DNA of 64,000 nt from Lacihabitans soyangensis (GTDB taxonomy: Bacteria; Bacteroidota; Bacteroidia; Cytophagales; Spirosomataceae). The translations under genes and the position numbers were made by a program. Below are positions 1 to 7,167 of this stretch, in pieces (position 1 is the stretch's first letter; every line of letters begins with the position of its first letter). The notes below the pieces were generated by a model. The model made no database searches. It saw only the letters and a program-made list of their open reading frames with translations, and was not told the origin of the DNA. The DNA is taken from positions 1 through 64,000 of the forward strand of contig NZ_RJUF01000174.1 in the NCBI RefSeq assembly GCF_024343775.1, written 5' to 3'.

Positions 1-1306
1 CATCCTTGCAAAACTTCGGACTGCCATCCTCTTCCTTCTTACCACTTCGCTTTTGGGCCAACTCCTCAGGCAGCCATGCCGTACAAATCTCTATATGATG
101 CTCCGCCAACTTCGCAGCTGCCATCTTACCAGGGGCATCTATATCAGGCACATTAATCACCCGCCACGCCATTTCGGCCAACTTCTTATAAGGAAAATAC
201 TCCGGCGTTATATGCTCCCCATTCGCCCAGACAGGGAAATACCCCAACGCCGCCATATTCAACGCATCACTCCCACCCGTCGCCACCAACACCTCAGGCA
301 GCTTATTCGGCTCATGTCCCGCATCGTAGGCCTCCTGCAGCATCTTCGCCACAAACCCATCATGCTCTTCCGGATTAATCCCCAACCTATCCATAATCTC
401 CGCATCATTCGGCAGATCATCATACGCCGCCTTCACCTGCTCCAGCCCAAACAAATAATTCTTCGGCACCACCCCCTCATAAAAAAACCGCTGCTTCCCA
501 TACGGCTCATAAAACTTATAAGCCGTAGGCTTCTCAAAATCCCCTCCTTCCAAAGGAGGGGTGCCCGAAGGGCGGGGTGGTTTGCGTGAGCTATTGCCGC
601 CCCCTATATGCCACACAAACATCGGATACGTCTCCGTAGCCTTAAACACATGCTTCACCTTCTGCCCCGTCTTCTTATCAATACTCACCAAACTATGCCA
701 AGCCAACGGCCTAAACCCATACTTCAAACAAACCTCCTTAGCCCGCTCAAACGCCACAGCATCCTTCCCCGTGCCCTTGTCACCCTGAGCCTGTCGAAGG
801 GCCGCTTCACCCTTCCCATTCCCCCCACCGGGGGTTAGGGGGCTTCTCCCCATCCACTCCCACACATGCTTAGCAAAAATCCCCTTCAGTGCTGCCATCT
901 CAAAATCATCCAGATACCCCCACTCACGCTTCTTCACTTCCACGTCTTCCAGACCTTCCGTTATCTTCTCATACTCATAGCTGCGGCTAGCCTTGCCATT
1001 CTCTACCAGGTTAAAGTGCTGGCATATCCACTTGCAGGCGTTAGAGTAATCCAGATTCTCAAACTCCATCACCACATCAAACGCACTCCAAGTCTTATCC
1101 GAGGAGCCCCAGTCACGAATCACCCACTCCGTGCCCGCCTCATTCTTCTGCAGGCCCAGGCTAGGGTTATTCTCGACCTTCAGGTGGTCGCACTTAAACT
1201 TATAGGCATAATTCCGCACGCCATTACTAGCCTCACTCACCTTCGCCAGTATCACATCCAGACCCATGTCCGTCTGTTCCAAAATCTCCTCTCTGCTAAG
1301 ACCCAT
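1..1306 (-). CDS. TOPRIM-domain DNA primase/helicase-like protein, C-terminus outside window
   Basis: Reading leftward from the ATG at 1306 the frame stays open for 435 codons to the window edge, so the gene is partial. Residues about 39-80 (NNPSL, later FDVV) resemble the primase zinc-binding fold, with only scattered Cys/His. Residues 338-356 (ATGGSDALNMAALG) and D388-x-D390 (VPDIDAPG) are the two acidic motifs of a TOPRIM domain, which in phage primases makes RNA primers. A helicase domain may follow outside the window. Two stretches read as in-frame repeat insertions: residues about 154-178 (SPLTPGGG, then LRQAQGDK) and 241-257 (PPRPSGTPPLEGG). A GATTGATT-like box lies 26 nt upstream of the start. 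Primase is inferred from motifs; related TOPRIM proteins cannot be excluded. Confidence 0.72.
   Translation of the reverse strand, partial: MGLSREEILEQTDMGLDVILAKVSEASNGVRNYAYKFKCDHLKVENNPSLGLQKNEAGTEWVIRDWGSSDKTWSAFDVVMEFENLDYSNACKWICQHFNLVENGKASRSYEYEKITEGLEDVEVKKREWGYLDDFEMAALKGIFAKHVWEWMGRSPLTPGGGNGKGEAALRQAQGDKGTGKDAVAFERAKEVCLKYGFRPLAWHSLVSIDKKTGQKVKHVFKATETYPMFVWHIGGGNSSRKPPRPSGTPPLEGGDFEKPTAYKFYEPYGKQRFFYEGVVPKNYLFGLEQVKAAYDDLPNDAEIMDRLGINPEEHDGFVAKMLQEAYDAGHEPNKLPEVLVATGGSDALNMAALGYFPVWANGEHITPEYFPYKKLAEMAWRVINVPDIDAPGKMAAAKLAEHHIEICTAWLPEELAQKRSGKKEEDGSPKFCKD
541..580. repeat. Family C palindromic repeat, in frame inside the primase-like gene
   Basis: CCCCTCC and GGAGGGG form a stem around TTCCAAA, followed by a GGGCGGGGTGG tail. 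On the coding strand it adds about 16 residues, including PPLEGGD, without breaking the frame. Confidence 0.8.
778..845. repeat. Composite A+B repeat, in frame inside the primase-like gene
   Basis: A family A unit (GTCACCCTGAGCCTGTCGAA, continuing GGGCCGC) is followed by about 15 bp of linker and a family B unit (CCCCCACCGGGGG, then TTAGGGGGCTT). It encodes residues about 154-178 of the primase-like protein and keeps the frame. Confidence 0.8.
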
Positions 1307-1331
1307 ATATTTATTTTCCAGAAAAACTCGT

Positions 1332-1339
1332 AATCAATT
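1332..1339 (-). promoter_or_regulatory. GATTGATT-like box upstream of the primase-like gene
   Basis: The - strand reads AATTGATT, a one-mismatch copy of the box found before four other island genes. It starts 26 nt from the ATG at 1306, within the 24-30 nt range of the set. Confidence 0.4.
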
Positions 1340-1353
1340 TTTTTATAATCCCA

Positions 1354-1377
1354 TGTCAGGCTGAGCCTGTCGAAGCC
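1354..1377. repeat. Family A repeat (short form), intergenic
   Basis: GTCAGGCTGAGCCTGTCGAA followed by GCC. This intergenic copy lies between the small membrane gene (1417-1539) and the box of the primase-like gene. Confidence 0.8.
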
Positions 1378-1416
1378 ACTTCACTACTGTCAATTAGAGC
1401 GTAGTTGAAGCCCCCA

Positions 1417-1539
1417 TCAATCCTCAAAAGCCGACCTAATAATCCCAATCAAAATCGACAAAAACACCACCGCAAAAAACAACCCCACACAAAACGCAAA
1501 AGGCTCTGCAGTCAAAAAGAAATGAATAATCTTCTTCAT
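1417..1539 (-). CDS. Small single-pass membrane protein, 40 aa
   Basis: Starts MKKIIHFFLTAEPFAFC and continues through a hydrophobic segment (about residues 13-34) to a short RSAFED tail. The frame stays open upstream to 1665, but that extension is translated A/C repeat sequence (RQAGSGLGLRPLDKLG-like) and is probably not expressed. The ATG at 1539 is preferred because the GATTGATT box sits 24 nt upstream, as at sister genes. Function unknown; a phage accessory membrane peptide or holin-like role is possible but unsupported. Confidence 0.5.
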   Translation of the reverse strand: MKKIIHFFLTAEPFAFCVGLFFAVVFLSILIGIIRSAFED

Positions 1540-1562
1540 AAAATCTCTATTAAGGTTAAAAA

Positions 1563-1570
1563 AATCAATC
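1563..1570 (-). promoter_or_regulatory. GATTGATT box upstream of the 40-aa membrane gene
   Basis: Exact GATTGATT on the - strand, 24 nt before the ATG at 1539. It is directly followed (on + ) by the A/C repeat cluster. Confidence 0.45.
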
Positions 1571-1575
1571 CTCCT

Positions 1576-1694
1576 GTCAGGCTGAGCTCCGTTTACCCCG
1601 AGCTTGTCGAGGGGTCGAAGCCCCAATCCGCTCCCCGCCTGGTGCCTGAGCGTAGTCGAAGGCAAGGAGGGGCTGGGGGTGGTTCCGGGGTGGT
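1576..1694. repeat. Repeat cluster: long A (49 bp), short A, C tail
   Basis: Long-form A occupies 1576-1624 and is identical over 49 bp to 1959-2007. Then comes CTCCCCGCCTGGTGCCTGAG with CGTAGTCGAAGG (short A variant) and AGGAGGGGCTGGGGGTGG (C-type tail). The cluster ends right after the stop codon of the 75-aa gene. Confidence 0.85.
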
Positions 1695-1921
1695 TAAAAA
1701 GGCAACTCTACCTTTTTGCCCGACTCAAACTCCACCAAAGTTCCCGTATGTCCATATTTTCCCAAAAGCTCCTCCAAATCCTTCGCAAAAGCTTCCGCAA
1801 TCTCCACCTTGCGTGTCATCCTAGTACTTTTCTCAAACTCAATATCAAACACCCCACTTATCTGATAAATAGGCTTAGTACTACAAGTACTCGTTCTAAA
1901 AAAACCATCAATTATTAGCAT
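1694..1921 (-). CDS. Hypothetical protein, 75 aa
   Basis: Begins MLIIDGFFRTSTCSTKPIYQ and ends GKKVELPF; no membrane segment or recognisable domain. The middle (KVEIAEAFAKDLEELLGKYG) looks like an amphipathic helix. The ATG at 1921 has a GATTGATT box 26 nt upstream, which supports this start. A family C repeat begins immediately after the TAA stop. Probably a real island gene; function not recognised. Confidence 0.5.
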   Translation of the reverse strand: MLIIDGFFRTSTCSTKPIYQISGVFDIEFEKSTRMTRKVEIAEAFAKDLEELLGKYGHTGTLVEFESGKKVELPF

Positions 1922-1946
1922 CTCTATTTGTTATTTGTGTTTGAAA

Positions 1947-1954
1947 AATCAATC
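1947..1954 (-). promoter_or_regulatory. GATTGATT box upstream of the 75-aa gene
   Basis: Exact GATTGATT on the - strand, 26 nt before the ATG at 1921, with a long family A repeat starting 5 bp further upstream. Confidence 0.45.
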
Positions 1955-1958
1955 CCAT

Positions 1959-2078
1959 GTCAGGCTGAGCTCCGTTTACCCCGAGCTTGTCGAGGGGTCG
2001 AAGCCCCGCCCTCCAACTAACTCCCCCACCGGGGTCCGGGGGGCTGGATTAAACTCCCCCACCGGGGGCCGGGGGGCA
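1959..2078. repeat. Repeat cluster: long A then two tandem B units
   Basis: Long A at 1959-2007 is followed by two B units at 2021-2045 and 2054-2078 (CTCCCCCACCGGGG, then TCC or GCC, then GGGGGGC), separated by GGATTAAA. The second B unit encodes the last residues (PPAPGGG) of the zinc-ribbon protein. Confidence 0.85.
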
Positions 2079-2273
2079 ATACACCTGCACCTTATCACAC
2101 ACAGTACACTGCCATTTCGGCTTCTTACTCTCCTTCAGTGCAGGTTTCCCAATATTCGTCTTCATATCCTCCGTTACCTGCACCGGGTTCACCGACCCAC
2201 ATCGGTTACAAGCACACCTATCAAACTTCACCTCCAGTTGGCTATCATCAGCCACTACATCATTCCTTTTCAT
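2049..2273 (-). CDS. Small zinc-ribbon-like protein, 74 aa, with repeat-derived C-terminus
   Basis: Two cysteine clusters, C20-A-C22-x2-C25 and C56-x2-C59 plus C66, suggest a zinc-binding ribbon. The last seven or so residues (PPAPGGGV) are encoded by a family B repeat, and the TAA stop lies just beyond it, so insertion probably replaced the original C-terminus. The start ATG overlaps the stop of the upstream 78-aa gene by 4 bp (ATGA), implying translational coupling and one operon with the HD hydrolase. The partner is unknown; metal binding is inferred from cysteine spacing only. Confidence 0.6.
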   Translation of the reverse strand: MKRNDVVADDSQLEVKFDRCACNRCGSVNPVQVTEDMKTNIGKPALKESKKPKWQCTVCDKVQVYCPPAPGGGV

Positions 2274-2506
2274 AAATCCTTAAGTTTTTCGTCAACCTCT
2301 TTAATATTTTCCTTACAAAGCTTTACCACAGATCCCCTGAACTCATCAAACATCGAATGACTGTCAGACAGCGTAAAGTCTTGCCTACCAGCCCCCTGTT
2401 TAGAAAAAGTAATTATATCACTCTGTGCAACCCTCTCCACTATAGATGCAAGCCTTTCCCTCTCCTCCATCAGCACCTTTACCTTGTCAAAATTCTCCGC
2501 TTTCAT
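2270..2506 (-). CDS. Hypothetical protein, 78 aa, predicted coiled coil
   Basis: Charged and mostly helical (KVKVLMEERERLASIVERV at the N-terminal side, VKLCKENIKEVDEKLKDL at the end), consistent with a short coiled coil. It starts 3 bp after the HD hydrolase stop and overlaps the zinc-ribbon gene by 4 bp, so it is the middle gene of a three-gene operon. No domain recognised. Confidence 0.55.
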   Translation of the reverse strand: MKAENFDKVKVLMEERERLASIVERVAQSDIITFSKQGAGRQDFTLSDSHSMFDEFRGSVVKLCKENIKEVDEKLKDL

Positions 2507-2509
2507 ACC

Positions 2510-3022
2510 TCATTTTCTATTTTTAAGTGCGTATTCATAAGTCTCCAAAAACAACCTTTTTTGGTAAGCAAAATCCGATTCAGTACTGAATCCCTTTGAA
2601 AAACCATGCAACTCTTCACGCACCTTCCACTCATCTTCAAGCTCAGCTTTATCAGCAGCCTTGGTCTCTTTCGAAAAAGGAAAACCAAACCCAAACTTCT
2701 CCGCTATCACCTTCATCACCCCATCCTCTATAGCCTTATACTCAGGCATATTTCGCTTAATCGGCCTCGGCAAATCCATCAAATATGCCTCACTAGAATC
2801 ATGCATCAGAGCCTCCAAAATATCCCCCTTTGTTCTCCAAGCCACATTCCTGCTATGCTGGGCCACAGTGTAGAATATTGGAAAATGCCCACCCCATCTC
2901 GGTATCATACTCAGTGCATGAGCTATATCCTCTATCACAAACATCTCAGGCTTAGGCTCAAACACATCCACATAAATCCCGCTAATCGTCTTAATCGTCC
3001 GTTCCGTATACAGCTTATCCAT
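2510..3022 (-). CDS. HD-domain phosphohydrolase (YfbR/phage type)
   Basis: Counting from the ATG at 3022 the protein is 170 aa. H56 (TVAQHSRN), H74-D75 (ALMHDSSEAY) and D124 (KAADKAE) match the metal-binding HD signature; the segment H74 to LMDLPRPIK is typical of phage and YfbR-like HD nucleotidases, which dephosphorylate (deoxy)nucleoside monophosphates. The frame is open to 3046, but the ATG at 3022 is preferred because it shares a nearly identical leader (TTTTTAAAT, optional A, GATAAAAGT) with the exonuclease gene at 3981. First gene of an operon with the 78-aa and zinc-ribbon genes. Substrate not determinable here. Confidence 0.75.
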   Translation of the reverse strand: MDKLYTERTIKTISGIYVDVFEPKPEMFVIEDIAHALSMIPRWGGHFPIFYTVAQHSRNVAWRTKGDILEALMHDSSEAYLMDLPRPIKRNMPEYKAIEDGVMKVIAEKFGFGFPFSKETKAADKAELEDEWKVREELHGFSKGFSTESDFAYQKRLFLETYEYALKNRK

Positions 3023-3047
3023 ACTTTTATCATTTAAAAATTCCAAA

Positions 3048-3055
3048 AATCAATC
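3048..3055 (-). promoter_or_regulatory. GATTGATT box upstream of the HD hydrolase gene
   Basis: Exact GATTGATT on the - strand, 26 nt before the ATG at 3022. An A+B repeat begins 8 bp further upstream. Confidence 0.45.
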
Positions 3056-3062
3056 TCACATG

Positions 3063-3141
3063 GTCAGGCTGAGCCTGTCGAAGCCCCGCCATCCAAGTCA
3101 CTACCCCACGGGGGCGGTCCGACGTTTCGGGCTGGGGGGCT
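3063..3141. repeat. Composite repeat A - 15-bp linker - interrupted B
   Basis: Short A (GTCAGGCTGAGCCTGTCGAA) runs into the linker CCGCCATCCAAGTCA (3086-3100) and then a B unit split by an extra GGCGGTCCGACGTTTCGG. The same 15-bp linker joins A to B at 5741-5755. Confidence 0.8.
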
Positions 3142-3331
3142 AAAAAAACACCCACACCATCACCCAAAACATCACCACTATCAGCGTCACCACCCCCCAG
3201 CTCCTTAGCCTCGTGGTGGCCTTTTCCAGCAGCCAATCCAGTGCATCCACCTTCACCAAAAACCAGAAGATCAACCACGTCAACCCAAAAGCCTTCAAAA
3301 AACTCCATATCCAAATCCCCACCGCCATCAT
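3140..3331 (-). CDS. Small membrane protein, 63 aa, two hydrophobic segments
   Basis: MMAVGIWIWSFLKAFGLTWL opens into a first hydrophobic stretch (about residues 3-26); a charged bridge DWLLEKATTRLRSW follows, then a second stretch to the end (VVTLIVVMFWVMVWVFF). The start overlaps the exonuclease stop by 4 bp (ATGA), so it is translationally coupled. A two-helix hairpin of this size resembles small phage holins, but no cell-wall lytic enzyme is adjacent, so the role is unknown. The stop abuts a repeat. Confidence 0.55.
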   Translation of the reverse strand: MMAVGIWIWSFLKAFGLTWLIFWFLVKVDALDWLLEKATTRLRSWGVVTLIVVMFWVMVWVFF

Positions 3332-3981
3332 TGCTTATTATTCTCTTGATCGATAACCTTGACCGTACTCATCCACGAATCCAAATCTTTTGGATTTAAT
3401 TGTGTTCCCCCACCGGGGGCTAGGGGGCTTCCGGGGGCCACAGGGCTAAACCTCTTCACCGTCTCCACCAAATACCCAATCTGGTTCAAGCAATCATCCA
3501 CAGGATCATGTTTCGTACCCTCAAATTTCCACTCCCTCTTCACCTCAGGCAGCAAACTCACTATCGTCCGCACATCACGCTCAATCCGTGGATTCCAAGG
3601 TGTGTGATAGCCAAATCCATCAAAATACTCCTTCAACAACACCAAATCAAAACTCGACCCATTGCCCCAAACACCAGTTTTTTCACCCATCACATCCGCA
3701 AAAAAATTCATCATCTCTGACAAAATCGTACCAGACATATTAGTAGGTACTGAAGCATTTAAAGCCTTAGCAAACACAATCTTATCTTGCTCATTCCACC
3801 ATTTTACCGTCTCAGGCTCTATCACAAACCCCTTCGCTACACTCTCCGCCAAAGGAATCTTAAACACTCCTTTCTTACCAATCTCGCCCTTCCAGTTCCA
3901 TTCTACCAAAGCCACGCTAAGTATCACCGCACCCGGCTTAGTACCCAGCGTCTCCAAATCCACGATCAATTGATCATACAT
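3328..3981 (-). CDS. DnaQ-like 3'-5' exonuclease (RNase T-like, DEDDh), with in-frame repeat peptide
   Basis: 217 aa. D8-x-E10 (IVDLETLG), D112 (GNGSSFDLVLL) and H158-x4-D163 (KHDPVDDC) give the complete DEDDh set of two-metal 3'-5' exonucleases, close to the phage RNase T-like exoribonucleases. It should trim 3' ends of DNA or RNA; which one cannot be told. After the catalytic core, residues about 179-192 (SPVAPGSPLAPGGG) are a family B repeat read in frame, in a C-terminal tail where an insertion is tolerable. It is coupled to the 63-aa membrane gene and shares its leader with the HD hydrolase gene. Confidence 0.8.
   Translation of the reverse strand: MYDQLIVDLETLGTKPGAVILSVALVEWNWKGEIGKKGVFKIPLAESVAKGFVIEPETVKWWNEQDKIVFAKALNASVPTNMSGTILSEMMNFFADVMGEKTGVWGNGSSFDLVLLKEYFDGFGYHTPWNPRIERDVRTIVSLLPEVKREWKFEGTKHDPVDDCLNQIGYLVETVKRFSPVAPGSPLAPGGGTQLNPKDLDSWMSTVKVIDQENNKQ
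3405..3445. repeat. Family B repeat, in frame inside the exonuclease gene
   Basis: TTCCCCCACCGGGGG, then CTAGGGGGCTT, followed by CCGGGGGCCACAGGG, a partial second copy. It encodes residues about 179-192 without frame loss. Confidence 0.8.
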
Positions 3982-4014
3982 ACTTTTATCTATTTAAAAA
4001 TTTAACTTTTTCAA

Positions 4015-4116
4015 CTCCCCTCCTGGTGCCTGAGCGTAGTGGGCGGCATTCCGTTCGAAGGCTGGGGGTGGGGCTTAACTCCCCTCCTGGTGCCTGAGCG
4101 AAGTCGAAGGCCGGGG
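4015..4116. repeat. Two tandem A/C-type repeats between the exonuclease leader and the 69-aa gene
   Basis: CTCCCCTCCTGGTGCCTGAG followed by CGTAGT occurs at about 4015 and again, with CGAAGT, at about 4080. The first copy is expanded by GGGCGGCATTCCGTT and carries a GGGGGTGGGGCTT tail. Confidence 0.8.
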
Positions 4117-4122
4117 CTGAGC

Positions 4123-4332
4123 CTACCTCCCAATCCTAAACATCCTCCAAGCCTTCGAAATACGCTCTCTCTCCGCCACTGGGCAGTACTTCCAGTAATC
4201 CATATAGCTCACCCCACAGCTCTCTGCAGCCTCCTTCACAAAATACCCCTTCTCCACCTTCTCCCTAATCATCGGCAAGGCATCTATCACCGCCTTCTGC
4301 ACCTCCAGCACCGTTCTATCTCGCTTTTTCAT
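4123..4332 (-). CDS. Small putative helix-turn-helix protein, 69 aa
   Basis: From the ATG at 4332: MKKRDRTVLEVQKAVIDAL, then helical segments including FVKEAAESCGVSYMDYWKYC, which reads like a helix-turn-helix of the kind in small phage DNA-binding or terminase-small-subunit-like proteins. Its ATG overlaps the upstream 53-aa gene stop by one base (TGATG), so it ends a three-gene coupled operon. DNA binding is inference. The TAG stop touches an A-type repeat. Confidence 0.55.
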   Translation of the reverse strand: MKKRDRTVLEVQKAVIDALPMIREKVEKGYFVKEAAESCGVSYMDYWKYCPVAERERISKAWRMFRIGR

Positions 4333-4493
4333 CACCTTCCAAGGCAATGAACCAACACCACCAACACCATCAGCCCAACCACCAGTCCCGGCATCAACTC
4401 CTCAAAAAACACCTCCATCGCCTCCTTCAAGCCACTGTCCACACTCCCGCCAACACGCAGCTTCCAGTTCAATACCCTAGCTATTCGTCTCAT
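4332..4493 (-). CDS. Small single-pass membrane protein, 53 aa
   Basis: Translating leftward from 4493 gives MRRIARVLNWKLRVGGSVDS, an amphipathic stretch ending FFEELMPG, then a strongly hydrophobic helix (LVVGLMVLVVLVHCLGR) to the stop at 4332. The start ATG overlaps the stop of the 118-aa gene (ATGA) and its TGA overlaps the next ATG (TGATG), so three genes are chained with no spacer. This tight double coupling is the main evidence that it is real. Function unknown. Confidence 0.55.
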   Translation of the reverse strand: MRRIARVLNWKLRVGGSVDSGLKEAMEVFFEELMPGLVVGLMVLVVLVHCLGR

Positions 4494-4846
4494 ACATTAT
4501 ATTTTCTTCTGTACGCTCCCCACCGATTCTCAACAAAAATCCTATCCTTAGTACTCCTATTCCTTATCAAGCCATGAGCTATTTGCTCAACCACAATAAG
4601 TCGTTCCTCAACTTCCTTGCATTCAGCCTCAGCCTTCTCTCGGTCAGCCTGAGCTTGTCGAAGGCCAGTCCTAGCAGCAGCCTCATTAAACTCTCCCGCT
4701 ATATTCAGCCCCAACAACACCACAAAAGCCAACCACTCACCCACCTCCAGCTTCCCAAAGCCCAAGCCCCACACGCTCAAACCCACAAAAATCAGCACAT
4801 ACCACAGCACCGAAACCTTCCCATCCCTATCCAGCCTATTCCACAT
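4490..4846 (-). CDS. Membrane protein with coiled-coil tail, 118 aa, with repeat-encoded segment
   Basis: From the ATG at 4846 there are two hydrophobic segments (about residues 12-30 and 36-51), then a charged helix. Residues 61-68 (GLRQAQAD) are a family A repeat in frame, merging into REKAEAECKEVEERL, a likely coiled coil. The frame is open to 4933, but that extension is translated family C repeat (PTPDPSPAGRG), so 4846 is preferred. It heads the coupled operon of three tiny genes. A holin/spanin-like role is possible from topology but unproven. Confidence 0.6.
   Translation of the reverse strand: MWNRLDRDGKVSVLWYVLIFVGLSVWGLGFGKLEVGEWLAFVVLLGLNIAGEFNEAAARTGLRQAQADREKAEAECKEVEERLIVVEQIAHGLIRNRSTKDRIFVENRWGAYRRKYNV
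4643..4666. repeat. Family A repeat, in frame inside the 118-aa membrane gene
   Basis: GTCAGCCTGAGCTTGTCGAA followed by GGCC; encodes GLRQAQAD on the leftward strand. Confidence 0.8.
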
Positions 4847-4876
4847 AATTATTATAATTTTAAATTCAAATTTTAT

Positions 4877-4915
4877 CTCTCCCCTCCCTGCTGGGGAGGG
4901 GTCGGGGGTGGGGCT
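4877..4915. repeat. Family C repeat, intergenic
   Basis: CTCTCCCCTCCCTGCTGGGG, then AGGGGTCGGGGGTGGGGCT. A CCCCTCCC/GGGGAGGGG stem; lies between the 64-aa gene stop and the 118-aa gene leader. Confidence 0.8.
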
Positions 4916-4920
4916 GATGG

Positions 4921-5115
4921 TCACATCTCCCACTGCACCGCATACCCAAACTCCCTCCTTAGCCTGCTCAAACTCTTACTATCCTTAGCCGCCAAACTAT
5001 GCTTCAGATACACCGTCCTATTCTTCGTCACCAGCCTAAACCCCTCCTTCCTAATCACATAATGCAGCCTATACCTAGCCCTATTCTCCTTCTCCGAAAA
5101 CACCCCTTTATACAT
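4921..5115 (-). CDS. Hypothetical basic protein, 64 aa
   Basis: MYKGVFSEKENRARYRLHYV, then beta-like segments and SLSRLRREFGYAVQWEM at the end. Lys/Arg-rich, soluble, no domain recognised. The ATG at 5115 has a GATTGATT box 30 nt upstream. Probably an accessory phage protein; function unknown. Confidence 0.5.
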   Translation of the reverse strand: MYKGVFSEKENRARYRLHYVIRKEGFRLVTKNRTVYLKHSLAAKDSKSLSRLRREFGYAVQWEM

Positions 5116-5144
5116 TTGCTAAAAAATAAATTACATCCCTTATA

Positions 5145-5152
5145 AATCAATC
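5145..5152 (-). promoter_or_regulatory. GATTGATT box upstream of the 64-aa gene
   Basis: Exact GATTGATT on the - strand, 30 nt before the ATG at 5115; tandem B repeats start 9 bp further upstream. Confidence 0.45.
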
Positions 5153-5160
5153 CCGATAAA

Positions 5161-5211
5161 CTCCCCCACCGGGGGTCGGGGGCTAACTCCCCCACCGGGG
5201 GCTGGGGGGCT
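5161..5211. repeat. Two tandem family B repeats
   Basis: CTCCCCCACCGGGGG then TCGGGGGCT (5161-5184), spacer AA, and CTCCCCCACCGGGGG then CTGGGGGGCT (5187-5211). They lie 3 bp beyond the stop of the 136-aa gene. Confidence 0.85.
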
Positions 5212-5214
5212 TGG

Positions 5215-5625
5215 CTAAAACCTATTCAGCACATCCCCACACTTCCTATACTCATCCAAATACCTCGACTTCGCCGACGTCTCGTCCGAAAAATACCGCT
5301 CCACCACCAGCCACATCATAGCCTTCACCACACCCTTCACAAAGCTGCTCTGGTCATCACGCATCCACACCAAATACTCCACACTCAGCCCCTTGCTAAT
5401 CCTAATAGCATGTGCAATCCTCGAAACTACTCCCCCTCCTTTCAAAGGAGGGGGCTGTGGGGTGGTAACCATCTGCCTCTCTATCACCATCCTTACCTCC
5501 TTCACATAAGCCATACTATTATCAGCCAGCGTGTCCAACGCCCACATAATCACCGCCTTATCCTGCAAAGACAGTCTCCTTCCAACCTGCCCGCTATTAG
5601 CAGAGCCTCCATGCATCTTTTCCAT
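5215..5625 (-). CDS. Hypothetical protein, 136 aa, with in-frame repeat peptide
   Basis: Mostly helical and soluble (DKAVIMWALDTLADNSMAYV, later FVKGVVKAMMWLVVERYF). Residues 54-66 (TTPQPPPLKGGGV) are a family C repeat translated in frame between two predicted helices, so it probably forms a surface loop. Start ATG at 5625 follows an AT-rich leader without the GATTGATT box. No family recognised. Confidence 0.55.
   Translation of the reverse strand: MEKMHGGSANSGQVGRRLSLQDKAVIMWALDTLADNSMAYVKEVRMVIERQMVTTPQPPPLKGGGVVSRIAHAIRISKGLSVEYLVWMRDDQSSFVKGVVKAMMWLVVERYFSDETSAKSRYLDEYRKCGDVLNRF
5429..5466. repeat. Family C repeat, in frame inside the 136-aa gene
   Basis: CCCCCTCC/GGAGGGGG stem around TTTCAAA with a CTGTGGGGTGGT tail. 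Encodes TTPQPPPLKGGGV on the leftward strand. Confidence 0.8.
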
Positions 5626-5653
5626 AAAAATTATTGATTAATTATCTACTCTT

Positions 5654-5783
5654 GTCACCCTGAGCTCCGCCCGCACTGAGCTTGTCGAATAATGTCACCC
5701 TGAGCTTGTCGAATAATGTCACCCTAAGCTTGTCGAAGGGCCGCCATCCAAGTCAATTCCCCCACTGGGGGTTAGGGGGCTTT
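5654..5783. repeat. Tandem family A array, linker and family B unit
   Basis: Three A units: 5654-5693 (expanded), 5694-5717 and 5718-5740; the last two have a 24-bp period (GTCACCCTGAGCTTGTCGAA, then TAAT). The linker CCGCCATCCAAGTCA (5741-5755) leads to a B unit ending at 5783. The stop codon and last residues (KAP) of the 177-aa gene come from the B unit. Confidence 0.85.
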
Positions 5784-6305
5784 ATCCCCCATCCTATTCT
5801 TATAATCCCACCACCACATCCAAGTCACCGTACTAATCATAAAAATGATAAGCCCACTCACAATCATCGTAGCTCCCACATTAGCACTTGGGTCTTCCAC
5901 CACCGCCTTCATACAACCATCATCCATTCTTTGGGCAGCTGCCGGGGCCATCGTCAGCCCCAGCAACATTCCCCACACCACTACCAACACCACAGTTTCA
6001 CTCACTAGCTTCTTTCTGGTCAAACGCTTACTCACCTTCGCCTCCGACTCCACCAACTTCTCCAAAGCCCTTGCCACCCTAACAGTCACACCAAGTCCAC
6101 CACGGCTTTCCTTCACATTCTTAGCAGCCCAATATCCTTCAGTAGTTTTAAAAAACTCATCATGCTCACCAAGTTGCTTCGACAACCCCCTGGTACTACT
6201 CATTTGACCCAAAAGCACCTCAACCTTACTCCTCCATTCCTTCACATCAAGATCATTAGGTGAATTCCCTTTAAAATCACGTAATTCTACTCTTGCCTTT
6301 GTCAT
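5772..6305 (-). CDS. Membrane protein, 177 aa, first leftward gene after the repressor
   Basis: A charged N-terminal half (about residues 1-100, possible coiled coil around LEKLVESEAKVSKRLTRKK) is followed by a hydrophobic segment near 101-122, ending PAAAQ, and a second near 143-166 with a Trp cluster (WMWWWDYKN). The last residues GDKAP and the stop are supplied by a family B repeat, so the native C-terminus may be lost. As the first gene leftward from the operator region it is the probable direct target of the repressor. No family recognised. Confidence 0.6.
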   Translation of the reverse strand: MTKARVELRDFKGNSPNDLDVKEWRSKVEVLLGQMSSTRGLSKQLGEHDEFFKTTEGYWAAKNVKESRGGLGVTVRVARALEKLVESEAKVSKRLTRKKLVSETVVLVVVWGMLLGLTMAPAAAQRMDDGCMKAVVEDPSANVGATMIVSGLIIFMISTVTWMWWWDYKNRMGDKAP

Positions 6306-6308
6306 AAT

Positions 6309-6347
6309 TACCCGTTAATTTTACCCGTTATAAATACCTGTTACAAA
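6309..6347. promoter_or_regulatory. Three tandem 13-bp direct repeats before the leftward start codon
   Basis: TACCCGTTAATTT, TACCCGTTATAAA and TACCTGTTACAAA abut with no spacer, beginning 3 bp upstream of the ATG at 6305. The 13-bp period and position suit a regulator site or a translation-control site for the leftward operon. Confidence 0.6.
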
Positions 6348-6353
6348 TATATA

Positions 6354-6400
6354 TTACGATAACGGAATAATCCATACGATTACGGAAAAAAATTACGTAA
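6354..6400. promoter_or_regulatory. Putative repressor operators in the divergent promoter region
   Basis: TACGATAACGGAA (6355-6367) and TACGATTACGGAA (6375-6387) are direct repeats spaced exactly 20 bp, two helical turns; the palindrome TTACGTAA follows at 6393-6400. This is the expected place for Cro/CI-type operators. Confidence 0.6.
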
Positions 6401-6428
6401 AATAGATAATTTAGAACTATTATAAATA

Positions 6429-6785
6429 ATGATACCCAAAAAAATAAGAATAATTGCGTCAGAAGTATTTAAAAATCAGGCAGATATGGCCAAAAAACTT
6501 GAAGTAGGCGGCAGCCGAATAAGTGAAGCCATCAACGGCAAAACAAAATACTTAAATGGTGAAGTAATAGAAAAACTCATCATGATCTACAAGATAGACC
6601 CTGTCTGGTTATTCACCGATGACGATGAGCCATTACGTTATCGTAACGATGAAAATCAAAAACCAGAACCCAAATACTACGAAGCAGTAGAAAAAATAAA
6701 CACTTTGCAGGAAGAACTCATAAAATATCAGAAAAAAGACATCGAAAACCTAAAAAATGCTCCTGTACTTCCTAACAACACCTAA
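6429..6785 (+). CDS. Cro/CI-like phage repressor (XRE helix-turn-helix)
   Basis: 118 aa. Residues about 10-45 (FKNQADMAKKLEVGGSRISE, then AINGKTKYL) form a helix-turn-helix of the XRE/CI type; residues about 85-110 (VEKINTLQEELIKYQKKDIE) look like a coiled coil that could mediate dimerisation. There is no LexA-like peptidase domain, so induction by RecA-stimulated cleavage is not expected. It diverges from the leftward early genes across 123 bp with repeated operator-like sites, and its own coding sequence holds another match (6636-6648). Infer a lysogeny or transfer repressor. Confidence 0.75.
   Translation: MIPKKIRIIASEVFKNQADMAKKLEVGGSRISEAINGKTKYLNGEVIEKLIMIYKIDPVWLFTDDDEPLRYRNDENQKPEPKYYEAVEKINTLQEELIKYQKKDIENLKNAPVLPNNT
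6636..6648. promoter_or_regulatory. Intragenic operator-like inverted repeat in the repressor gene
   Basis: CGTTATCGTAACG is a perfect 5-bp inverted repeat around TCG. Its first 11 bases are the exact reverse complement of TTACGATAACG at 6354-6364 in the divergent promoter. Confidence 0.45.
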
Positions 6786-6995
6786 TTAACACCCAAACCT
6801 ATCACCATTAAATCAAAAAAAAACAGGCATAAATACCCGTTTATAGTGACAAAAAAATGACAAACCAACCCCAAAATGACAACCCAAAACCCAAAAATGA
6901 CAAACCCCAAAACCCCTAACCCCCTAATAATCAAGCATCCAGTTTCAAAATATCAATAAACATACAAATCTCTTCTTCGTCACGTTAACAAATTG

Positions 6996-7067: not shown

Positions 7068-7167
7068 CAATGCCGTTTAGTTAAGTACAAATACTAAGTC
7101 CCTCTTCTGTGGAGAGGGATTTAGGGTGAGGTTTTAGAGTAAAAAAAAACTTAACTAAATGACATTG
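7068..7167. mobile_element. MITE-like element, 100 bp, with terminal inverted repeats and 10-bp flanking direct repeats
   Basis: Left end CAATGCCGTTTAGTTAAGT (7068-7086) and right end ACTTAACTAAATGACATTG (7149-7167) are 19-bp inverted repeats matching at 17 positions. The element is flanked by identical ATTCAAGATT direct repeats (7058-7067 and 7168-7177), as expected of a target-site duplication. Inside lies a family C-like palindrome (7097-7136: CCCTCT, then TCTGTGG, then AGAGGG, then a TTTAGGGTGAGGTTTT tail). No room for a transposase, so it would be mobilised in trans. Confidence 0.7.

Follow-up and report, generated by a model that had tools for sequence, protein, structure and literature searches.

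Short hairpin repeats, dense and one-way in a Lacihabitans soyangensis prophage, lie in frame within phage genes

Short palindromic repeats of three families, here called A, B and C, crowd a prophage of Lacihabitans soyangensis, where they run almost without exception in the direction of the genes and lie in frame within many of them. The stretch analysed here (the window) comprises 64,000 nucleotides, positions 1 to 64,000 of contig NZ_RJUF01000174.1 (C174) in assembly GCF_024343775.1; its positions 1-6983 are the right end of a tailed-phage prophage, the rest of which lies on contigs C46, C178 and C41. We counted 137 copies in 63,108 non-redundant prophage bases (75 A, 39 B and 23 C), the overlaps between contigs and bases 1-700 of C46 being left out. 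A preliminary description of this DNA had reported such repeats inside a primase-like gene, an exonuclease gene and genes for proteins of 118 and 136 amino acids (aa); all were found at these places, and the phenomenon is larger than had been noted. The island is probably the early end of a temperate tailed phage that has been heavily invaded by non-autonomous, hairpin-forming mini-elements resembling repetitive extragenic palindromes (REPs).

Repeat families and their structure

Family A occurs in two forms. Given in gene sense, A11 is of the type N4-TCGACARGCTC-N4' with an 11-nt loop (44 copies), and A12 reads N4-TCGRCTNCGCTC-N4' with a 12-nt loop (31 copies); N4 and N4' pair in both. Family B reads G-CCCCC-YAR-CCCCC-RRW-GGGGG-A with an optional inset of ~15 nt, and family C reads ACCACCCC-(hairpin)-CCCCTCCTT-N-AAGGAGGGG. 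Across the prophage pieces we found 75 A cores in sense and 0 in antisense, against 0.13 per strand in 30 dinucleotide shuffles, which excludes a chance origin for this family. Exact matches to CTGAGCYTGTCGA number 51 in the host's own genome: the main prophage has 32 non-redundant copies, contig overlaps duplicate 2, a second prophage region on contig C180 has 3 and the remaining ~5.5 Mb have 14. Family A is ~200 times rarer in the remainder of the host genome than in the prophage.

The stem of A is 4 bp long, with covarying arms: of the 75 copies, 69 have a Watson-Crick match at pair 3 and 72 at pair 4, compared with 27.7 and 28.7 after shuffling, and pairs 5-9 are near chance; 13 stem types with four full pairs cover 68 of the 75 copies. 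Among 157 copies from IMG/VR, gathered with a search pattern that mostly fixed the first two stem pairs, pairs 3 and 4 are Watson-Crick in 126 and 104 (58 and 52 shuffled). The conserved part of A is its loop, not its stem. After the second arm comes a tail, TGACA in 19 of 44 A11 copies and ACC in 28 of 31 A12 copies. When copies no more than 60 bp apart are merged there are 56 A, 31 B and 23 C clusters, and 98 for all families jointly, the joint count having used a narrower C pattern. A lies within the loop of C five times in the prophage. Tandem arrays are also present (L077 8078-8222 and 11993-12067, L079 15584-15681), with A at 33 bp x 5 and 21 bp x 4 and B at 29 bp x 4. A rule that every element length is divisible by three was dropped: A fits it at two empty sites, conservation of B spans about 24-26 columns, and the hairpin insets of C, of 9 and 11 nt, differ by a number that three does not divide.

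Copies within genes

Open reading frames (ORFs) of the window that carry repeats, and the repeats in them, are as follows.

2-1306, minus strand: putative primase/polymerase-like protein, N-terminal part, with three in-frame repeats (full protein 1130 aa, C41:19037-22429)
542-581, minus strand: family C, long form, in the primase gene; encodes KPPRPSGTPPLEGG, with a gap in the single covering homologue
783-801, minus strand: family A hairpin CCCT-TCGACAGGCTC-AGGG in the primase gene; peptide LRQAQG, ungapped in the single covering homologue
823-843, minus strand: family B in the primase gene; encodes SPLTPGGG (gap fraction 0.62, one covering homologue)
2057-2077, minus strand: family B in a 74-aa ORF (2049-2273), giving the C-terminal tail CPPAPGGGV
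3328-3981, minus strand: exonuclease with PF16473 over residues 4-171; its C-terminal tail derives from B
3408-3431, minus strand: family B in the exonuclease tail; peptide SPLAPGGG
4490-4846, minus strand: 118-aa ORF with an A copy; no match in eight related phage regions
4647-4665, minus strand: family A hairpin GCCT-TCGACAAGCTC-AGGC in the 118-aa ORF; peptide LRQAQAD
5215-5625, minus strand: 136-aa ORF with a C copy; no match in the eight phage regions and, in 390 genomes, none but itself
5434-5466, minus strand: family C in the 136-aa ORF; peptide PQPPPLKGGG

The frames are uninterrupted at the in-gene copies of the window, and they give the peptides LRQAQG, SPLTPGGG, TPPLEGG, SPLAPGGG, LRQAQAD and PPLKGGG; the preliminary description had named the stereotyped peptides LRQAQ, SPLxPGGG and PPLxGGG. 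It had also claimed that catalytic residues of the exonuclease are spared, and the exonuclease insert sits in the C-terminal tail past the PF16473 domain; two of the three aligned homologues have already ended there and the third has a tail of its own. The 74-aa ORF has a weak match on C180 (E 0.003) over residues 3-67, which ends before the B-derived tail.

Copies are depleted in genes. A simple ORF caller assigns 84.1% of the sense strand to coding space, and 76 of the 137 copies (55%) fall there (A11 27/44, A12 21/31, B 19/39, C 9/23), a density ~4 times lower than between genes (binomial 2.5e-15, assuming independent copies). The reading phases of in-gene A11 are also uneven, with 20 copies in phase 2 (the LRQAQ frame), 6 in phase 1 and 1 in phase 0; for phase 2 versus phase 1 this is 20/26 (P = 0.005, one-sided), and phase 0 reads TGA where the tail is TGACA. 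The terminase, portal, capsid and integrase genes of the prophage hold no repeat copies.

Gaps and empty sites

To compare the repeats with homologous proteins we took the ten non-redundant genes that have a homologue among the eight related phage regions (31 copies) and counted a homologue only within its own tblastn match, leaving 20 copies in 8 genes testable. The set omits the N-terminus of the window primase (a duplicate of C41), genes without a homologue in the eight regions and genes that the simple ORF picker overlooked (the 118-aa ORF, searched separately, is one of them). The gap fraction is 0.547 at 173 repeat residues and 0.110 elsewhere, and 0 of 20,000 rotations reach 0.547. This version supersedes a looser first one that had counted truncated or unaligned homologue ends as gaps (0.479 versus 0.189; 0 of 20,000 rotations). 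Single cases include the primase peptide KPPRPSGTPPLEGG, at a 25-residue gap (one homologue); SPLTPNGG, gapped in both its homologues (0.88); FGSAGFGSAQP in a C46 protein, at an 11-residue gap in 5 of 6 rows; and TTPGPSLGRRG, gapped in 7 of 7 homologues. The primase on C180 has an A core at residue 274, a site without A in the main-prophage primase, which speaks for independent insertion.

At the DNA level we screened 981 A copies with flanks, dropping copies less than 150 bases from a sequence end and keeping overlapping loci. Thirteen comparisons showed a gap of at least 14 bp across A, and in 6 of these, at two independent sites, it is 24 bp. In the IMG/VR contig L245 a 24-bp A insert faces four empty relatives (L584, L254, L252 and L650), and a fifth, L646, has an aligned gap of 22 bp. 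The L245 protein reads VVTTGPDA-PSTGSGQG-LRVDAV where that of L584 reads VVTTAPDA-LRVDAV, in open frames of 788-997 aa (997 aa in L245). The second site, in the IMG/VR contig L555, has a 24-bp insert relative to two empty relatives, L468 and L636, and is counted as a DNA-level insert, the addition of eight residues to a protein being seen at L245 alone. Both sites fit an arm of 4, a loop of 11 or 12, an arm of 4 and a tail of 5 or 4, so that the whole stem lies inside the insert. Neither 24-bp site has a target-site duplication beyond one or two ambiguous bases. Elsewhere, L660 gains 18 bp net relative to two relatives in an open frame of ~390 aa. L190 has an A copy in the loop of a larger palindrome, of which an A-empty version occurs in the same record; like the A copies nested in C, this speaks for mobility of the unit.

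That insertions are filtered for tolerated sites, as had been suggested, agrees with gaps beyond chance, with the clean 8-codon empty site in another protein and with the depletion in genes. Insertion and filtering are demonstrated for the repeat set, not for each copy.

Direction of the copies

The other families are as one-sided as A, or nearly so: antisense copies in the prophage are almost absent for B (39:1 by loop sequence) and for C (22:1 by leading arm, with 23 by core). In the window A has no antisense match, and the antisense loop pattern of B is absent. The prophage on C180 has 9 A cores (8 with a stem) and 6 B, all sense. The need to keep frames open does not account for the one-way arrangement, since a flipped A would still be mostly open in two frames.

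The phage genes are on the minus strand in both prophages, and the two seem to face host replication oppositely: strand-corrected skew at third codon positions (GC3), measured on the plus strand of the host flank, is -0.072 on C174 (117 kb) and +0.035 and +0.062 on C180. We therefore rejected host replication as the cause of orientation, the sign of the skew being opposite at the two prophages. As the repeats keep their direction despite this, the direction is tied to the phage map or to its transcription. Repeats in genomes G168 and G227 were dropped as support for an orientation rule, their matches having no stem.

The prophage

Contig overlaps, the tRNA, the integrase, the attachment (att) core and relatives of the terminase and protease identify the island as a prophage end. 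C178 and C41 share 971 identical bp, and C41 overlaps the window exactly over 1624 bp. On C46 a tRNA (730-813) precedes an integrase-like gene, and the 17 bp at the 3' end of this tRNA recur at window 6967-6983, so that C46 holds attL and the window attR. C46 and C178 have no end-to-end overlap; we infer their junction, which falls within a repetitive collagen-like gene. Tail-type genes are also on C46, terminase and portal on C178, and capsid, protease and primase (its N-terminus in the window) on C41, and the integrase, att sites, terminase, portal and capsid are features of a temperate tailed phage. A Pfam scan of ten window ORFs gave a match above cut-off for the exonuclease alone, and the window part of the primase had none; the other phage gene names are putative, taken from homology among phage regions and from gene order. 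The remaining features of the window are these.

1-6983, no strand: right prophage end, with 10 A, 8 B and 3 C pattern matches; continues on C41, C178 and C46
1359-1377 and 3067-3085, minus strand: intergenic family A hairpins, stem GGCT/AGCC
1596-1614 and 1979-1997, minus strand: intergenic family A variants, stem CCCC/GGGG
4092-4111, minus strand: intergenic A with a 12-nt loop, GCCT-TCGACTTCGCTC-AGGC; another at 1644-1663
5164-5210, minus strand: two neighbouring intergenic B elements
6429-6785, plus strand: 118-aa ORF pointing away from the early genes; may encode a phage repressor, to judge from position and sequence
6967-6983, no strand: attR core, 17 bp identical to C46:798-814, the tRNA 3' end

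Just beyond attR, on the host side, is a further hairpin (window 7100-7135, tccctcttctgtggagaggga ttt agggtgagg) with a two-C-arm plan like that of B and C. The second, related prophage of the same genome (G000:C180:126001-168000) has a terminase 43% identical to that of the first and A and B copies of its own. Rfam at gathering threshold found two tRNAs in 120,856 bases and no family for the repeats. Neither genomes nor viral contigs yielded relatives in a related-locus search that started from the terminase, the exonuclease found one distant locus in viral contigs (not used further), and one repeat-dense stretch had no match among phage and plasmid records.

Occurrence in host relatives, viruses and beside transposase genes

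The exact sequence CTTCGACARGCTCAG occurs in 32 of 150 genomes of the family, in some of them in more than 80 copies. Its counts on the two strands are 103 and 101 in genome G045 and 5 and 43 in the host's own genome, and the A copies of G045, among the matches listed, are mostly inverted pairs ~67-69 bp apart. Another family genome has ten A on one strand, several of them 54 bp apart (G251:C12:132344-134230). Seven related phage regions from other genomes were compared: one has a single stem-supported A and the others none, and the only A-rich regions in the comparison are this host's two prophages. A patterns were found in at least 120 viral stretches in each of three scans, and the B pattern in no viral contig. 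The IMG/VR contigs L686, L689, L692 and L703 carry five or six A copies tagged with TGACA; these face both ways, and the distances between them recur from contig to contig. A 26-mer of family C is identical in at least 116 genome stretches, among them records of Bacteroidota, Cyanobacteria, the Planctomycetes-Verrucomicrobia-Chlamydiae (PVC) group and Proteobacteria; such identity across many phyla, among the matches listed (L305-L384), points to a probable horizontal spread of the repeat itself.

Genes of the Y1 or REP-associated tyrosine transposase (RAYT) type gave 12 matches in the own genome and 40 in 12 A-rich genomes. Stem-supported A with either loop is absent within the ~1.5-kb flanks of 10 own and 30 other such loci, and at one own locus (L070) an A12-like core lies at the extreme edge. 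Hairpins of another sequence, CCCCNNNGGGG, adjoin RAYT-type genes at the own loci L070, L071 (arrays in both) and L073, similar hairpins flank such genes at L166, L167, L173 and L176 in relatives, and these look like cognate REPs of Bacteroidota RAYTs.

Discussion

The nearest kin of family A are REPs, their doublets known as REPINs (REP doublets forming hairpins), and the Rickettsia palindromic elements (RPEs), and for each of them A lacks a defining feature among those tested. RPEs are palindromic repeats tolerated in frame within genes of unrelated function (PMC2229807, PMC10969869, PMC3733652); the main type measures 105-146 bp and occupies the chromosome of an intracellular bacterium (PMC2229807), and the shorter RPE-4 and RPE-6 are classed as CGTC repeats (PMC3733652). 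Our set resembles RPEs in being palindromic, in frame in genes and missing from homologues (with 5 of 20 testable copies ungapped), and the likeness to them that was first proposed holds as an analogy of hairpin repeats in frame in genes rather than as proven membership; unlike the main type, with its long stem-loop, A is ~24 bp, has a freely varying 4-bp stem, is phage-borne and runs one way. CGTC-tagged REPs are short hairpins that bear a tag; they occur in several phyla, Bacteroidetes among them, in part within genes, and are reported to lack a dedicated transposase. They have stems of 8-9 bp, loops of 4-5 nt and a terminal unpaired CGTC (or TGTC/CCTC) tag (Di Nocera 2013, PMC3733652). The tag variant TGTC stands on the complementary strand of 19 of 44 A11 copies, A12 having ACC instead (28/31), and the 4-bp stem and 11- or 12-nt loop of A are unlike the stem and loop of that class. 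For REPs linked to REPINs and RAYTs a single-stranded mechanism on the IS608/REPIN model has been proposed (Bertels and Rainey 2011, PMC3116915; PMC6006769). A is like REPINs where it forms inverted doublets in some host relatives (G045); unlike them it appears in the prophage as one-way singletons (75 sense, 0 antisense) without doublets, and unlike RAYT-linked REPs it has no stem-supported copy beside the 40 RAYT-type loci examined. It also differs from miniature inverted-repeat transposable elements (MITEs) in having no clear target-site duplication at the two 24-bp empty sites. Cyanobacterial small dispersed repeats, the subject of a 2008 study by Elhai, are reportedly (by its title) very short and mobile. 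Intragenic REPs and RPEs are already published (PMC3733652, PMC2229807 and PMC10969869); the novelty here lies in the scale reached within a phage, in the bias to one strand and in a unit that leaves the frame intact. A search of titles and listings in the open-licence literature gave no paper on such phage-genome repeats or on A sequences.

How might A have spread? It would move as a single-stranded DNA hairpin that enters phage DNA, itself single-stranded, while the phage replicates, a proposal drawn from the one-way orientation, the hairpin form and the published IS608/REPIN model. Single-stranded entry would fix the direction of A relative to the phage map, whichever way the prophage lies in the chromosome, a length of 24 bp would keep the reading frame, and selection would purge insertions that disturb folded cores. 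The mobilising enzyme would perhaps act in trans from a host, and a fixed loop with a free stem suggests a mover that recognises structure plus loop, not the whole sequence. More tentatively, and with more doubt than conviction, we propose that the frame-neutral 24-bp hairpin represents a class of very small selfish elements suited to gene-dense phages, in which the loop would carry identity as the 4-bp stem drifts, copying into replicating phage genomes would be single-stranded and in one direction, and phages would amplify and carry the elements and keep gaining peptides of eight residues in their proteins.

A number of our own results weigh against invasion by such mini-elements. No transposase is tied to A among the RAYT-type loci examined. 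The 24-bp unit was observed in other contigs and at no site in the main phage, 7 of the 13 gapped comparisons gave 16, 18, 20, 22 or 25 bp, and the tail needed to reach 24 bp is degenerate in the prophage, at the frequencies of TGACA and ACC given above. Tandem copies inflate the repeat counts, the 75 A being 56 clusters. Gap fractions of 0.5 or more were found for 11 of the 20 testable copies; 11 of the 31 copies lie outside every match, 6 of the 20 rest on a single homologue, and the homologues in the tested genes are 21-58% identical, so that gap edges are soft. The preliminary description had asked for clean gaps in insert-free homologues. Gaps beyond chance are seen for the set as a whole and not at 5 of the 20 copies, to which the refuting outcome that it named applies; ungapped are LRQAQ of the window primase (one homologue), LRQAQ in C178:8095-9111 (6 homologues), YLRLRSD and APPAPGGG in a C46 protein (7 homologues each) and one APPAPDGG. 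These copies may have replaced residues, or an insertion may have been followed by loss. Close to its C-terminus the C180 primase carries another A core; the main primase has two in that region, and the site may be shared. The skew on the C174 side is weak (-0.015) in the first 39 kb beside the prophage. Direction is also less strict elsewhere: IMG/VR loci with at least four A are one-way in 8 of 27 cases (e.g. L492, L502, L509 and L537), the genes of L509 run both ways, so its one-way copies are not sense, and lone A between co-directional genes is 16 times sense and 34 times antisense, in counts from which repeated sequence contexts were removed. The strict one-way rule is a property of some phages.

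Two main rivals remain, selection at the level of RNA and carriage from an earlier host. The hairpins could be kept for what they do in the RNA of the phage, be it processing, stability, termination or control of polarity, the sense direction being selected and the in-gene copies riding along. This is possible, if on the unlikely side: the single orientation relative to transcription in both prophages, though a flipped A keeps two frames mostly open, the covarying A stem and the ~4-fold higher density between genes speak for it, as do the unpaired A in genes of other viral loci (184 sense, 111 antisense, counted in the same way). It sits badly with the lone A between co-directional genes of those loci, which are not biased to sense, with seven related phage regions that have at most one stem-supported A, and with the lack of any Rfam family at gathering threshold. 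A phage that acquired its repeats in an earlier, repeat-rich host and now just carries them would account for the few copies in the rest of the present genome (14 exact A) and would have had candidate sources among the 32 A-bearing family genomes; we think this unlikely to a similar degree. Against it, no compared phage region is rich except the two prophages of this host, and G045, the most fully listed rich host, has doublets rather than one-way singletons.

That these are ordinary REPs or REPINs moved by a host RAYT is more doubtful. The symmetric inverted A pairs in some host relatives (the 103 forward and 101 reverse of G045) are what speaks for it, together with the 12 Y1 transposase matches in the own genome, some of which stand beside B-like CCCCNNNGGGG arrays; the linked CCCCNNNGGGG repeats, however, are unlike B in their flanks, stem-supported A is missing beside the loci examined apart from the A12-like core at the edge of L070, and the prophage copies are one-way singletons. 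It is improbable that the repeats serve as recombination linkers, with same-direction copies at gene borders favouring module exchange and inverted copies purged as a cause of inversions. Many copies are indeed intergenic and nearly all point the same way, but 76 of the 137 are in genes, and stems vary among copies, which lowers homology. Chance low-complexity, GC-rich coding sequence without any insertion is barely credible: the 5 ungapped copies are in its favour, it is countered by the shuffles, the rotations and the DNA empty sites, and for the whole set it is refuted.

In-gene repeats are known from some bacterial chromosomes. Here the hot spot is the genome of a virus, in which A is ~200 times denser than in the host remainder, and for family A two sites resolve the insertion unit, in the DNA itself, as a block of 24 bp. 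Two old questions thereby become testable, how REP-like repeats without a transposase move and how often selfish DNA gives proteins new peptides.

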